Shown piece by piece: positions 11,461 to 23,312 of a DNA stretch of 64,000 bases. Position numbers and translations under genes: made by a program. Each line of letters starts with the position of its first letter. Position 1 is the stretch's first letter. This DNA comes from Armatimonadota bacterium (lineage in GTDB: Bacteria > Armatimonadota > Fimbriimonadia > Fimbriimonadales > Fimbriimonadaceae): positions 186,001 to 250,000 of the forward strand of contig JADFMN010000001.1 of assembly GCA_022563855.1 (NCBI GenBank). The letters run 5' to 3'. The notes beneath the pieces were generated by a model. The model saw only the letters and a program-made list of their open reading frames with translations, made no database searches and had not been told where the DNA came from.

Positions 11461-12114
11461 ATGAGTAATGCTCGTCCCTTCGGGTTGTTCGCAGTAGTCC
11501 TCGCAGTGGGAGGAGCTGCCGCATACAGCCAACAGGGTAAGAACATGGAACTCCACCTTGACGCAGCCGATCTACCTGGCGGAGTGACGCTTTACGGCTC
11601 TGACGCCGTGACGCCGCTCAGGGAGAATATGGAGATCGCCACGTTTGGCGGCGGATGATTCTGGAGCGTTGAAAACGCCTTCCGTCAGGTTGACGGAATC
11701 ACAGCGACAGCGGTCGGATTTGCCGGGGGTAGCGTTAAGAGCCCAACGTACAGGCAAGTATGCCTTTCGGACACTGGCCACGCCGAAGTGATACGCATTG
11801 AGTACGACCCGAAGAAAGTCAGCTACGAGCGACTTCTCGAGGTTTTCTGGGCGATTCACGATCCGACGCAGTTCAATAGACAGGGCGTCAACATTGGCAA
11901 CCAGTATCGCAGTGTGATATTCTTCCACACGGAAGAGCAGGCGCGAGCTGCGCGCAAGAGCTACGATGTCATCGCAAAAGAAAAGGGCCAAGCCTTAGCA
12001 ACGCAGATTCTAGAAGCCGTTCCCTTCTTCATGGCTGAGGATTACCATCAGCAGTACTACTCCCGTAAGGGGGTCCCTGCTTGCCCGATACCGCCAAAGT
12101 CTGGCGGCGGGTAA
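11461..12114 (+). CDS. msrA: Selenocysteine-containing peptide methionine sulfoxide reductase A (in-frame TGA, Sec66)
   Basis: Reduces methionine-S-sulfoxide. The frame is interrupted only by TGA at 11656-11658. Translation continues in the same frame to 12114 (217 aa), with MsrA sequence on both sides: MEIATFGGG-[TGA]-FWSVENAF, then GFAGGSVKSPTYRQVC, GHAEVIRIEYDP and MAEDYHQQYY. The TGA falls exactly where MsrA has its catalytic Cys (GCFW), which known seleno-MsrAs replace with Sec. A SECIS-like hairpin follows (11680-11698). The N-terminus looks like a signal or anchor peptide (FGLFAVVLAVGGAAAY). An internal ATG at 11629 preceded by AGGGAG could give a short cytosolic form. A pseudogene is the alternative, but no other lesion is present. 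Confidence 0.85.
11680..11698 (+). promoter_or_regulatory. Candidate bacterial SECIS in msrA
   Basis: Perfect 7-bp stem TTCCGTC/GACGGAA with 5-nt loop AGGTT, starting 21 nt after the TGA; the first loop base is 29 nt downstream of it. Bacterial SECIS elements place the apical loop about 16-37 nt after the UGA and carry a G at one of the first loop positions; E. coli fdhF has a GGU-containing loop. A 5-bp hairpin (11666-11678) lies just before it. Confidence 0.75.
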
Positions 12115-12604: not shown

Positions 12605-14314
12605 TTATCGGACGTTGAAGTACTTCGCGGCGGGGTGGTGAACAATGATCGCGCTAGTGGACTGCTCGGGGTTCAGCATGAACTCTTCGCTGAGCTCGAT
12701 CCCGATATCCAGAGGCTGCAATAGCTCAAGCAGCTGGGTCTGGTCCTCTAGGTTCGGGCAGGCCGGATAGCCGAACGAGTACCGAGAGCCGTGGTACTTG
12801 GCGCTGAACAGCAGGCGCATCTCCTCCGGCTCCTGGTCGTCGATCCCCATCTCGGCTCTGATGATCTTGTGCCAGTACTCCGCGAGCGCCTCGGCGGTCT
12901 CGACGCCCATGCCGTGGGTGTAAAGGTACTCCTGATAGTCGCCGCTCTTGAACTGGCTCCGCTCGTACTCGCTGATCGCGCCGCCGATCGTGACGATGTG
13001 GAATCCCACGACGTCCATCTCGCCCGACTCGGTGCTGCGAAAGAAATCGCTGAGGCACTGGCGCTTCATAGCGCGCTGCCTTGGGAAGTTGAAACGGCAC
13101 CGCTCCGTCTTCTTGTCTTCTCGGTAGACGATCAAGTCGTTCCCTTCGCTCTGACACCAGAAGTAGCCCCATTTGACCGCCGGGTGCATGTGCGGCGCTA
13201 GCTCCCGCTGCTTCCTCTGGAAGATCGGCCCCGCCTCATCGTTCAGCCAATCTGTGAAATCAGGGTTGCTCATGCCTTTCGGCTTCTTGTACTGCCATTG
13301 GCCACGGAACAGCGCGATCGGGTTGATGTACTTGTATATCTCGAAAACGTCGAACTTGGTCTGTTTCTTCGCGCCGTAGAACGGGAGGTCTGGCACGTTT
13401 TCGGCTGGTTCGACGTCGCTCTTCGTACCGTCAAAGACGTAGAGAGCCGGATCGAGCACATCGACGCGGTGCGAGGAGACGCGCCGCTGCGTGGCCTCTT
13501 TGTGGTCTCTTTCGGAGTGCGCGGACGCGTCCGCGCTTTCCACAGCGGTCTCTTCCTGCTCTTGCTCCGAGCTGCCCAACTCCCCCATGAGCCGCAGGCC
13601 CTCGAACGCATCTTTCGCGTAGAACACATGGCCGTCATAGATCTCGCGAAGATCTTGCTCTACGTACGAGCGTGTCAACGCTGCGCCACCTAGGATCACA
13701 GGGATCGAAGACACGCCGCGCCGGTTCATCTCGATGAGGTTGTCGCGCATCACGAGCGTACTCTTGACGAGCAGCCCGCTCAGGCCGATGACCGCGCACT
13801 TGCTCTCTTCGGTCTTCTCCAGGATCGAATTGATCGGCTGTTTGATCCCGATGTTGACGACGCGGTAGCCGTTGTTGCTCAGGATGATGTCGACGAGGTT
13901 CTTGCCGATGTCGTGCACGTCGCCCTGAACGGTCGCGAGCAGGATCGATCCCTTCTCGCTCCCCTCCTCCTTCTCCATGTGCGGCTCGAGGTGCGCGACC
14001 GACGCCTTCATCACCTCCGCGCTCTGCAAGACGAAAGGCAGCTGCATCTTCCCCGCCCCGAACAGCTCGCCGACCGTCTTCATCCCGTCGAGCAGGATGT
14101 CGTTGACGATCTCAAGCGGCTTGTACACCTTCATCGCTTGGTCGAGGTGGTCGTCGAGCCCTTTCTTGATCCCATCGACGATGTGCTTCTTCAGCACGTC
14201 TTCGACCCCCAGGCCCTCGAACGCGTCGGCGGACGTATCGACCGCCTTCACGTTCTCAAACCGCTTCATCAGCTCGATCAGCGGATCGTATGTGACTTCT
14301 CGCTCTTCGCTCAT
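12605..14314 (-). CDS. metH: Methionine synthase, cobalamin-binding and AdoMet-activation half (split MetH)
   Basis: Carries the C-terminal modules of cobalamin-dependent methionine synthase: cap helices (residues about 5-90), the B12 domain with the DVHDIGKN base-off histidine motif and GLSGLLVKS (about 110-240), a charged linker, and the activation domain ending in SFGYPACPNLEDQ (about 300-565). The homocysteine and folate modules are encoded 7 kb away on the other strand (21363-23312). Start chosen at 14314 (MSEEREV); an ATG at 14353 with a TATGGT hexamer 8 nt before it is an alternative. Divergent from the gamma-glutamyltransferase gene. Confidence 0.92.
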   Translation of the reverse strand: MSEEREVTYDPLIELMKRFENVKAVDTSADAFEGLGVEDVLKKHIVDGIKKGLDDHLDQAMKVYKPLEIVNDILLDGMKTVGELFGAGKMQLPFVLQSAEVMKASVAHLEPHMEKEEGSEKGSILLATVQGDVHDIGKNLVDIILSNNGYRVVNIGIKQPINSILEKTEESKCAVIGLSGLLVKSTLVMRDNLIEMNRRGVSSIPVILGGAALTRSYVEQDLREIYDGHVFYAKDAFEGLRLMGELGSSEQEQEETAVESADASAHSERDHKEATQRRVSSHRVDVLDPALYVFDGTKSDVEPAENVPDLPFYGAKKQTKFDVFEIYKYINPIALFRGQWQYKKPKGMSNPDFTDWLNDEAGPIFQRKQRELAPHMHPAVKWGYFWCQSEGNDLIVYREDKKTERCRFNFPRQRAMKRQCLSDFFRSTESGEMDVVGFHIVTIGGAISEYERSQFKSGDYQEYLYTHGMGVETAEALAEYWHKIIRAEMGIDDQEPEEMRLLFSAKYHGSRYSFGYPACPNLEDQTQLLELLQPLDIGIELSEEFMLNPEQSTSAIIVHHPAAKYFNVR

Positions 14315-14391
14315 TCCGTTCGGCACCAAGTTTACTTGTCGGTCAACTAACATCGTTAGGCACCATAAAGTGGCATTTAGTCTCGGTATGC

Positions 14392-16092
14392 TTGTGCCTA
14401 GTGACCAACTTCGGCTCATATCCCTACTCTTCTCAACGAATGCCTGTGTTCGCCCGCAACGTCGTGGCGACCTCTCAGCCGTTGGCGGCCTCAGTGGGGC
14501 TGGAGACGCTCAGGCGTGGGGGGAACGCGATGGACGCGGCGCTGGCGACGGCGATCTGCCTGACGGTGGTCGAGCCGACCTCGAACGGCATCGGCTCGGA
14601 CGCGTTCGCCTTGATTTGGTCTGGCGGCGAGTTGCAAGGACTGAACGCGAGCGGCAAGTCGCCTGCGAACTGGGACGTCTCGAGGTTCGACGGCATGGAG
14701 CAAGTTCCCTTGCGAGGATGGGATGCGGTGACGGTGCCGGGCGCGGTCGATGCGTGGGTGCAGTGCTCGCGGCGGTTCGGGCGCATGCCGTTCAGCGAGC
14801 TTTTCGACGGTGCGCTGCGCTACGCCGAAGACGGATTCCACGTCTCCCCCGTCATAGGGCTTGTGTGGGCGCGTGCGGCGGAGGCGTTCAAGGGGTTCCC
14901 CGCTTTCTATGACACTTTTATGCCGGGGGACAAGGCGCCCGAGATCGGGAGCATCATGTTTCTTCCCGACCACGCCGAGACGCTTCGCTTGATCGCAGAG
15001 AGCGAGGGCGAAGCGTTCTATCGTGGTGAGATCGCTGAGAAGATCGTCAAGGACGCCGAGGCCAACGGCGCGGCTATGTCGCTGGACGACCTCGCGCAGC
15101 ACGAGTCGGAGTGGGTCGAGCCGATCTCCATCGGCTTTCACGGCGTCGATCTGAATGAGATCCCGCCGAACGGCCAGGGCCTCGCTGCACTGATCGCGCT
15201 GGGCGTCTTGCGCCACACTCCGGTTCTCGACTTCCCCATCGACTCCGCGGACTCGGTCCACCATCAGATCGAAGCGATGAAGATCGCGTTCGCGGAGGTC
15301 TTCGCGCATCTCAGCGACCCAGCAACCATGCGCGCCTCGGTCGATGAGCTGCTTGATGACACGTATCTCAAAAAGCAAGCCGACTCGATCGACCCGAAGA
15401 GCGCAGGTAAGGCACGCTCGATGCTCGCAGCCGCGCCGAGTACCGTCTATCTGTGCACCGCGGACGACGAGGGCATGATGGTTTCGTTCATCCAGTCGAA
15501 CTACTACGGCTTTGGATCCGGCGTGGTCGTCCCCGGCACGGGGATCGCGCTGCAGAACAGGGGCTGCGGTTTCACTCTCGAAAAAGACCACCCCAACGAG
15601 GCCGCCCCCGGCAAGCGCCCGTTCCACACGATCATCCCCGGCTTTGTAACTTCGGAGCGCGGGCTCTCAGCCCGCATCCAGGACCACGGACTCTCAGTCC
15701 GTGAGCCCGCTCCTATGGAAAGCGCGGTCCTTCAATCCGCTCAGGATGACAACCCCGCGCACTCCCAAAATGCGCTGATGGCGTTCGGGGTGATGGGAGG
15801 TCACATGCAGGCGCAGGGGCACGTGCAGACGGTTCTGCGAACCTTCGGCCACGGCCAAAACCCGCAAGCCGCATCTGATGCCCCACGCTGGCAGGTTTCT
15901 GAGGACGGCGAGGTCCTACTCGAAGAGGGTTTCGATACGAGTGTCGCCGACAATCTCGCGGCTCGCGAACACAAGGTTAAAACCAACATGGCTCCCGGCC
16001 ACTTCGGCGGCGGTCAGTACATCTTGAAGCTCGAAGACGGCTACTGCGCCGCGAGCGACCACCGCAAGGACGGCTGTGCCCTAGGATTCTGA
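14392..16092 (+). CDS. Gamma-glutamyltransferase family protein with a repeat insertion
   Basis: 566 aa, N-terminal-nucleophile hydrolase family: VVATSQPLAASVGLETLRRG, GGNAMDAALATAICLTVVEP, SNYYGFGSGVVVPGTGI, RPFHTIIPGF and FGVMGGHMQAQGHVQ. The classical Thr autoprocessing site corresponds to PSTVYLCTAD, where Thr is present; activity is plausible. The start is ambiguous: TTG at 14392 or GTG at 14401. Homology begins at SYPYSSQRMPVFARN, so the ATG at 14440 is too late. About 38 residues between IPGF and LMAFGVMGG are encoded by palindromic repeat DNA (15652-15765) and look foreign to the family. Confidence 0.88.
   Translation: MCLVTNFGSYPYSSQRMPVFARNVVATSQPLAASVGLETLRRGGNAMDAALATAICLTVVEPTSNGIGSDAFALIWSGGELQGLNASGKSPANWDVSRFDGMEQVPLRGWDAVTVPGAVDAWVQCSRRFGRMPFSELFDGALRYAEDGFHVSPVIGLVWARAAEAFKGFPAFYDTFMPGDKAPEIGSIMFLPDHAETLRLIAESEGEAFYRGEIAEKIVKDAEANGAAMSLDDLAQHESEWVEPISIGFHGVDLNEIPPNGQGLAALIALGVLRHTPVLDFPIDSADSVHHQIEAMKIAFAEVFAHLSDPATMRASVDELLDDTYLKKQADSIDPKSAGKARSMLAAAPSTVYLCTADDEGMMVSFIQSNYYGFGSGVVVPGTGIALQNRGCGFTLEKDHPNEAAPGKRPFHTIIPGFVTSERGLSARIQDHGLSVREPAPMESAVLQSAQDDNPAHSQNALMAFGVMGGHMQAQGHVQTVLRTFGHGQNPQAASDAPRWQVSEDGEVLLEEGFDTSVADNLAAREHKVKTNMAPGHFGGGQYILKLEDGYCAASDHRKDGCALGF
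15652..15765. repeat. Palindromic repeat inserted in the gamma-glutamyltransferase frame
   Basis: Two tandem perfect hairpins, both with loop CTC: a 7-bp stem at 15659-15675 (GCGGGCT) and an 8-bp stem at 15685-15703 (CACGGACT). They are followed by a CTTCAATCCGCTCAGGATGAC segment, similar to sequence at about 39826-39861. The insertion keeps the frame and falls between two conserved family motifs. Confidence 0.7.
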
Positions 16093-18055: not shown

Positions 18056-18586
18056 CTACGCTTCCAGCTCAACGCCTAGCCCGTCGGCTACGCGGTTGAC
18101 GAACGCGAAATACGCAACGATACACGTGAGGTCGTGGATCGCGCGGTCATTCAGGCCTTCATCGCGCAACGCGTCAACATCACCCTGCGACATCTCTGCG
18201 GGAGTGCGCGTGAGTTTCGTGGCGTAATCCAGGATCGCTCGGTCGACGGATTCAAGCTCCATCGCGCGATAGTCGCCGATTAACCCGCCGACGAACGCCT
18301 CGACCTCCGACCCCGGCCGGCCTTCCCCTCCCAGAGCAGCGCGGAGACCCCGCGCGTGGTGTTCGACTCAGTAGTGACACCCGTTCAGCCCTGAAACGAC
18401 CACGGCGATCATCTCTCTTTGCACGCGCGACAGCGGCCCAGGCTTGTGCATCAACTCGAGGTACAGGTCGTAGTGAAGCCTCATAACCTCGGGATGCACG
18501 CAGTGGATCTGGAGGATGTTGTCCTTGTCGGGCACCCTCTGTTCGGGCGCGATCTCGCTCTCGGGGACGTACTCTATGAATGCCAT
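18056..18586 (-). CDS. AhpD-like peroxidase-related selenoprotein (CxxU, in-frame TGA, Sec73)
   Basis: 176 aa of the carboxymuconolactone decarboxylase/AhpD family (peroxidase-related enzyme type), interrupted only by TGA at 18370-18368. Before it: MAFIEYVPE, LSRVQREMIAVVVSGLNGCHY. After it, in frame: VEHHARGLRAAL, then DRAILDYATKLTRTPAEMS and CIVAYFAFVNRVADGLGVEL. The family motif is NGCHYCxxHH, so TGA replaces the resolving Cys of CxxC, giving CHYU. AhpD-like selenoproteins of this type are known. A SECIS-like hairpin follows (18339-18355). A GAGGAG Shine-Dalgarno precedes the ATG at 18586. It likely reduces peroxides with a thiol/selenol pair. Confidence 0.87.
18339..18355 (-). promoter_or_regulatory. 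Candidate bacterial SECIS in the AhpD-like gene
   Basis: Perfect 6-bp stem GCGCGG/CCGCGC with loop GGTCT on the coding (minus) strand. The first loop base is 19 nt after the TGA. The loop GGUCU shares GGU with the msrA element and GGUCU with the E. coli fdhF loop. Confidence 0.75.
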
Positions 18587-18676
18587 GAAGCTCCTCGACT
18601 AAGCAGACCTTACCCGCTCGCAATCCAGTCCCAGCATCTACGCCGCAAGTCCCATATCCATGCTCTGCTGATTCGC

Positions 18677-21362: not shown

Positions 21363-23312
21363 ATGAAGTTTGAAAGTCCCCTGCTCGATGCCCTTGCCGA
21401 GCGCGTCTTGGTCTGGGACGGGGCCAGCGGCACGCAGTTGCAAATCGCGGCGCAGGACGACGCGGACTTTACTCTCGACCCTTCAGCCGACTATCCGACA
21501 AAGATCAAAGATGCCGCGCAACGGCTCGACGGCAAGCCGCTCGATGGGTGCAACGACATTTTGAACATCACGCGACCCGAGGTTGTTCAAGCGTTGCACG
21601 AGTCCTACCTCGCGGTCGGGTGCGACATCGTCGAAACGAACAGTTTCGGCACGACCTCGATCGTTCTCGACGATTATGAGATTCCTGAGCTGGTCTACGA
21701 TATCAGCCTAGCGTCGGCACAGATAGCGCGGCGCGCCACGGACAAGTTCTCAACGAGCGACAGGCCGCGCTTTGCAGTCGGGGCGGTCGGCCCCGGAACG
21801 AAGCTCATCAGCCTCGGCCAGGCGACGTGGGACGAGCTGGAGTCGACGTACTGCGATGCGATGACCGGCTTGATCGACGGCGGAGTCGACGCTCTGCTCC
21901 TCGAAACCCTACAAGACCTTCTGATGGCAAAGGCGAGCATCGTGGGCGCAGAGCGTGCGATGGCCGAGACGGGAAAGCGGCTTCCGCTGTTCGTGCAGAT
22001 CACGATTGAACAGACAGGCACGATGCTCGTCGGAAGCGAGATCGGAGCGGCGCTCAACATGGTCGAGTGCTTCCCCGGCGTCGTCGCTGTCGGCATAAAC
22101 TGCGCGACCGGCCCGAAGGAGATGGCGTCGCACGTGCGGTTCCTCGGCAAAAACTCTACACGTCCCATCTCCGTGCAGCCGAACGCGGGGCTCCCTTTGA
22201 TGGAGGGCGGAAGAGCTGTCTACAAGCTCACGCCAGAGGAGCTTGCGCAGCACCACGAGCTGTTCGTGAAGGAGGACGGTGTCGCAATGGCGGGCGGCTG
22301 TTGCGGAACGACGCCAGAGCACATGAAGTTGGTCGTCGAAGCGGTCGGCGGACGACCGCACACGAGCAACGCGCATTGGATGAAGTGCCGCGACCTCTTC
22401 CCCGGCTTCGACTTCTCAATGAAGACTCAAGAGCAGATGAGCGCGCTGAAGCTCGTAGGTTGTTCGTCGCTCTACCAGTTCGTCCCTTACGACCAGGAGC
22501 CCTCGTTCCTCATCATTGGCGAAAGGACGAACGCGAACGGCAGCAGGAAGTTCAAGAAACTGCTCGCTAACGATAACTGGGACGCGATGGTCGACCTCGC
22601 GCGCGAGCTTGAAGGCGAAGGTTCGCACGTCATCGACGTCTGCACCGCCTACGTTGGCCGCGACGAAGAGCGCGACATGCGGATTCTTCTCAGCCTCTAC
22701 AACAAGCAGGTGACCGTGCCGATCATGATCGACTCGACCGAGGCGAACGTGATCGAGGTATCGCTGCAGTACCTCGCGGGCAAGCCGATCATCAACTCGA
22801 TCAACTTCGAGGACGGCGGCGAGCGTCTGCACACGGTGCTCGGCTTCGCTCAGAAGTACGCCGCAGCGGTCGTCGCCTTAACGATAGACGAGGACGGAAT
22901 GGCGAAAACCTGCGCTCGTAAAATCGAGGTCGCGGATCGACTGATCGAGCAGACCCGCGCTTACGGACTCCCCGATCACGACGTGTTCTTCGACTGCCTC
23001 ACCTTCACGCTCGGCTCGGGCGACGAAGAGTTCCGGACCGCCGCGATCGAGACCATCAAGGCGATCAAGGAGATCAAGAGGAAGTACCCGCTGGCGAACA
23101 CGACGCTCGGGGTCAGCAACATCTCGTTCGGCCTCAATCCCGCCACCAGGATCGTGCTGAACTCCGTTTTCCTGCACTACGCTCTCAAGGCCGGACTCAG
23201 CAGCGGGATCGTCCACGGAAGCAAGATACTGCCAGAGAACAAGATCGACCCCGAGGTTTGGAAGATTACGGAAGACCTGGTGTTCGACCGGCGCGAGTAC
23301 GCCAGCGCCTGA
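21363..23312 (+). CDS. metH: Methionine synthase, homocysteine- and folate-binding half (split MetH)
   Basis: 649 aa. The homocysteine S-methyltransferase domain (residues about 10-325) begins VWDGASGTQLQ and holds the zinc Cys ligands in GINCATGP and GGCCGTTPEHM. The pterin-binding domain (about 380-640) includes IIGERTNANGSRKFKKLL and PIMIDSTEANVIE. It stops where the cobalamin modules normally follow; those are in the separate gene at 12605-14314. The two products should assemble to methylate homocysteine from methyltetrahydrofolate. Confidence 0.93.
   Translation: MKFESPLLDALAERVLVWDGASGTQLQIAAQDDADFTLDPSADYPTKIKDAAQRLDGKPLDGCNDILNITRPEVVQALHESYLAVGCDIVETNSFGTTSIVLDDYEIPELVYDISLASAQIARRATDKFSTSDRPRFAVGAVGPGTKLISLGQATWDELESTYCDAMTGLIDGGVDALLLETLQDLLMAKASIVGAERAMAETGKRLPLFVQITIEQTGTMLVGSEIGAALNMVECFPGVVAVGINCATGPKEMASHVRFLGKNSTRPISVQPNAGLPLMEGGRAVYKLTPEELAQHHELFVKEDGVAMAGGCCGTTPEHMKLVVEAVGGRPHTSNAHWMKCRDLFPGFDFSMKTQEQMSALKLVGCSSLYQFVPYDQEPSFLIIGERTNANGSRKFKKLLANDNWDAMVDLARELEGEGSHVIDVCTAYVGRDEERDMRILLSLYNKQVTVPIMIDSTEANVIEVSLQYLAGKPIINSINFEDGGERLHTVLGFAQKYAAAVVALTIDEDGMAKTCARKIEVADRLIEQTRAYGLPDHDVFFDCLTFTLGSGDEEFRTAAIETIKAIKEIKRKYPLANTTLGVSNISFGLNPATRIVLNSVFLHYALKAGLSSGIVHGSKILPENKIDPEVWKITEDLVFDRREYASA

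Follow-up and report, generated by a model that had tools for sequence, protein, structure and literature searches.

The AhpD-like gene and its neighbours

The window (the whole 64,000-nucleotide stretch of DNA that was analysed) carries an AhpD-like gene at 18056..18586 on the minus strand. Read from 18586 to 18056, this gene is a frame of 176 codons that runs from ATG to a TAG stop and contains one in-frame TGA, codon 73 (18368..18370, minus strand), at the second position of a CxxC motif. With the TGA read as selenocysteine (Sec, U), the translation is MAFIEYVPES...SGLNGCHY[U]VEHHARGL...NRVADGLGVELEA (176 residues including Sec73). The coordinates, minus-strand orientation, NGCHY-TGA-VEHHARGL motif and continuing frame given in a preliminary description of this DNA all proved exact on re-reading. 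A putative Shine-Dalgarno-like sequence, GAGGAG (18591..18596, minus strand), was read directly 4 nt 5' of the ATG, and a promoter and terminator consensus scan gave no match. The gene stands alone on the minus strand with plus-strand genes on both flanks, so the neighbourhood names no partner for its product.

When U is replaced by Cys, the protein matches the TIGR01926 'peroxidase-related enzyme' model at 118.7 bits (cut-off 81.8), the AhpD core domain model TIGR00778 at 45.3 bits (cut-off 27.8) and the Pfam CMD model at 47 bits (cut-off 23). All 36 alignment members that were scanned likewise match TIGR01926 at E <= 0.001. The protein falls outside AhpD sensu stricto (TIGR00777: 21 bits against a cut-off of 191.95). 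It shares a homologous C-terminal half and the CxxU motif with the alkylhydroperoxidase-related (seleno)protein AhpD_rel_CFYUT (NF041238), but is not a member of that family: only positions 215-336 of the 357-aa model are matched, at 52 bits against a cut-off of 175.

An AlphaFold2 model built from 36 sequences has a mean pLDDT of 94.2 and is all-helical, with an AhpD-like all-alpha fold. The best Foldseek matches of this model in the PDB are 6k40 (D. radiodurans), 3c1l, 2pfx, 2prr and 2oyo, with query-normalised TM-scores of about 0.78-0.88 (0.80-0.88 for the first four). These five proteins share the fold, length and Glu-CxxC-His active site of the window protein at 26-34% identity (in the fold search), but have Cys where the window protein has Sec. 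The proton-relay residues are present as Glu58, Cys70, Sec73 and His77, in the pattern Glu-(x11)-Cys-x-x-Cys/Sec-x3-His; the Glu, Cys and His columns are invariant in 38/38 homologues, and column 73 is either Cys or Sec. The relay of M. tuberculosis AhpD, Glu118-Cys130-x-x-Cys133-x3-His137 (PMC3141380), has the same spacing, which places Sec73 at the equivalent of Cys133. The overall similarity to this enzyme is weak (1gu9: E 0.07, TMq 0.43): it is a distant relative of the window protein and not an orthologue.

The second, independent TGA at a redox-active Cys codon of which the preliminary description spoke is also real, and is presumably that of the MsrA gene at 11629-12111 on the plus strand. 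This gene matches TIGR00401 at 188 bits (cut-off 108) and has its TGA at 11656-11658, in the catalytic Cys codon (GGG-U-FW). Sec-containing MsrA is a known family. Downstream of the TGA come a small G-loop hairpin, GCGTT-GAA-AACGC, and then a second hairpin; the loop of the first begins just 13 nt from the TGA, nearer than the usual 16-37 nt. Among relatives, one MsrA gene (L061) has TGC at this position, most others lack any in-frame stop and a few carry a single TGA, so that the Sec form of MsrA is sporadic there, unlike that of the AhpD-like gene. Elsewhere in the window, a methionine-synthase-like (MetH) sequence seems, by eye, to be split between a homocysteine/pterin-type part at 21363-23309 (plus strand) and a B12-binding-type part at 12605-14419 (minus strand).

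Conservation of the TGA codon

Searches of relatives, of the phylum and of public genomes yielded 38 homologues, the window's own included, for the comparison that had been proposed as a check. In 22 of them the aligned part contains a single TGA, and its column is the same in all; the other 16 have TGT or TGC there. The 21 further homologues with a single TGA in the identical column put its placement beyond chance. Of the TGA homologues, 21 belong to the window's phylum (from 20 genomes, the window's own among them) and one is an acidobacterial record; the Cys homologues, collected by a pattern search with a bias towards the query, comprise 15 from Pseudomonadota and one archaeal record. Within the window's phylum every copy found is of the Sec form (21/21 TGA, 0 Cys). 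The distribution is patchy in the phylum, with a homologue detectable at E <= 0.001 in only 7 of the 61 genomes searched (the window's own included).

The clean continuation of the frame past the TGA is upheld by the substitution pattern, as coding-type constraint persists downstream. Relative to the closest relative (G031, 63% identical), dN/dS is 0.20/0.99 before the TGA and 0.35/1.53 (about 0.23) after it; purifying selection acts on the stretch that follows the TGA. A maximum-likelihood tree separates the Sec and Cys forms with two changes, a number made unsure by long branches. One genome (G050) carries two different TIGR01926 genes, L023 and L028. Each has its TGA in the shared column, and in the tree the branch of L028 is long and placed close to the Cys forms.

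Candidate selenocysteine insertion signal, and the Sec machinery

Downstream of the TGA, and within the coding region, lies a candidate bacterial SECIS hairpin, GCGCGG-GGUCU-CCGCGC (18339..18355, minus strand). The preliminary description had reported a GCGCGG/CCGCGC hairpin with loop GGUCU, and its account is accurate: the element reads from 18355 to 18339 and its first loop base is 19 nt after the TGA. Published bSECIS rules call for a loop of 3-9 nt, a stem of 4-16 bp, an MFE <= -7.5, a G in the first two loop positions and a distance of 16-37 nt from the UGA (PMC13188914). The window hairpin agrees with all of these rules: it has a 5-nt loop with GG at loop positions 1-2, a 6-bp stem, 18 nt between TGA and loop, and an energy of -10.7 kcal/mol. 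The 51-nt segment taken alone folds no better than its dinucleotide shuffles (z +1.29), so the evidence for a SECIS element comes from comparison across the family rather than from the single sequence. A search of Rfam for SECIS returned no match, the one chance hit (CRISPR-DR) being far below its gathering score.

For the family comparison, each peptide was recoded synonymously 300 times, and the best G-loop hairpin close to the native TGA was measured against those of the recoded versions. By this measure the window hairpin is marginal (fraction 0.087), and the Sec genes as a group have a mean z of -1.82 and a median fraction of 0.02. Hairpins at least as stable as -4.8 kcal/mol are found in 21/22 Sec genes, with L052 being the one Sec homologue without a clear hairpin by the criteria used; the -7.5 rule is reached by some, not all, Sec homologues on simple hairpin energy. 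The Cys genes (n=16) have a mean z of +0.17 and none better than -4.6, their hairpins being weaker or absent. A single register across all Sec homologues is impossible, as the hairpin registers differ slightly, and covariation was assessed in a set of 13 sequences (L025 and L026 off register). In the one-register group, 94.5% of cells are paired and compensatory changes occur at two pairs; none of the slid versions of the hairpin in this group is comparable.

The preliminary description had named absence of the Sec machinery as an outcome that would count against a selenoprotein; SelA, SelB, tRNA-Sec and SelD are all present. The window's own genome (3.18 Mb in 22 contigs, 96% complete) encodes a tRNA-Sec (74.2 bits) with anticodon TCA (UCA), SelB (345 bits), SelA (513 bits) and SelD (359 bits). 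The SelD gene (L017; G000 contig C4, 338766-339668, minus strand) has one in-frame TGA of its own, as is seen in many Sec-decoding bacteria. SelA is above the cut-off in 18 of the 20 phylum genomes with a TGA homologue; the other two are 78% and 64% complete.

Reading of the TGA and role of the protein

The TGA might be a nonsense mutation in a pseudogene, or a TGC/TGT misread through a sequencing or assembly error. Either would take a single-base change, and the rarity of the gene among the genomes searched indicates that it is dispensable in the lineage; yet a single TGA stands in the same column of 21 other genes from independent genomes, and purifying selection persists after it. Together, the conserved TGA and the downstream selection exclude nonsense mutation and sequencing error, and we rejected this explanation, to which we give almost no weight; the assembly error that the preliminary description had named as a way in which its claim could fail is disposed of by the same independent genomes. 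Equally improbable is a reassigned code in which UGA means Trp, Gly or Cys throughout the genome, in place of site-specific Sec insertion. A frame that reads through the TGA is all that such a code needs, but TGA ends genes in the usual way within the window (ORF 14392-16089, for example, has a TGA at 16090 with another gene directly after it), and a scan of the 64 kb found only three TGAs flanked on each side by coding-like sequence. The two convincing candidates sit at redox Cys positions of the AhpD-like and MsrA proteins, and the genome has the complete SelA/B/C/D set. With the Sec machinery present and TGA in use as a normal stop, reassignment was rejected as well.

It is also very unlikely, if by a shade less so, that the TGA is a real stop giving a 72-residue product and a separate fragment from a downstream start. 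This is the outcome to be expected from standard gene callers, and Sec-insertion readthrough is often partial. Such a stop would, however, split the active site Cys70-x-x-U73-x3-His77 in every TGA homologue, and the downstream part stays conserved and in frame with its spacing fixed.

The gene thus reads as a functional AhpD-like selenoprotein of the TIGR01926 'peroxidase-related' subfamily, an interpretation from sequence that we hold at a probability of about 0.96, with Sec itself probably inserted at codon 73. The hairpin, lying 18 nt downstream in the mRNA, would recruit SelB, which would deliver Sec-tRNA(Sec) to the UGA; the predicted product would be an all-helical protein of 176 residues whose active site is Glu58-Cys70-x-x-Sec73-x3-His77. 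If the protein works as AhpD does, position 73 would be one of the two redox residues that the Glu/His relay serves, and the selenolate there, deprotonated via this relay, may attack peroxide. Sec73 would then form a selenenylsulfide with Cys70, which a cellular thiol system would reduce again. Alternatively, Sec73 could act in an adaptor as its redox selenol. Peroxidase activity as the main role is likely and not more than that, because the fold also serves other roles: the structure matches include the related fold of the debrominase Bmp8 (6ohi) and of sestrins, and Bmp8 shows that other chemistries exist on an AhpD-like scaffold. It is improbable, on the other hand, that the exclusive use of Sec among the copies found in this phylum reflects a chemistry beyond the reach of Cys, such as a reductive dehalogenation like that of Bmp8, instead of ordinary peroxide reduction.

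That AhpD-like CxxU selenoproteins were already known, as the preliminary description stated, is confirmed by the literature. They were reported in Sargasso Sea data in 2005 (27 sequences; PMC1088965) and in GOS data as two groups, of 299 and 70 sequences (PMC2398784), and a 2026 review lists an 'AhpD-like protein, TIGR01926, CxxU' (PMC13188914). Compared by model, motif and SECIS placement, the window gene shows no categorical difference from these published proteins: it matches the same model, has CxxU with Sec second and carries a SECIS candidate directly downstream, and agrees with the AhpD-like TIGR01926/CxxU family in every feature tested. The family having been known since 2005, the window gene is one more sequence; it enlarges the set of AhpD-like selenoproteins and leaves ideas on them unchanged. 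Recognising it mends a gene model that standard annotation would cut short at residue 72. It also puts on record that Sec decoding is active in this lineage and that the AhpD-like family there consistently contains Sec.
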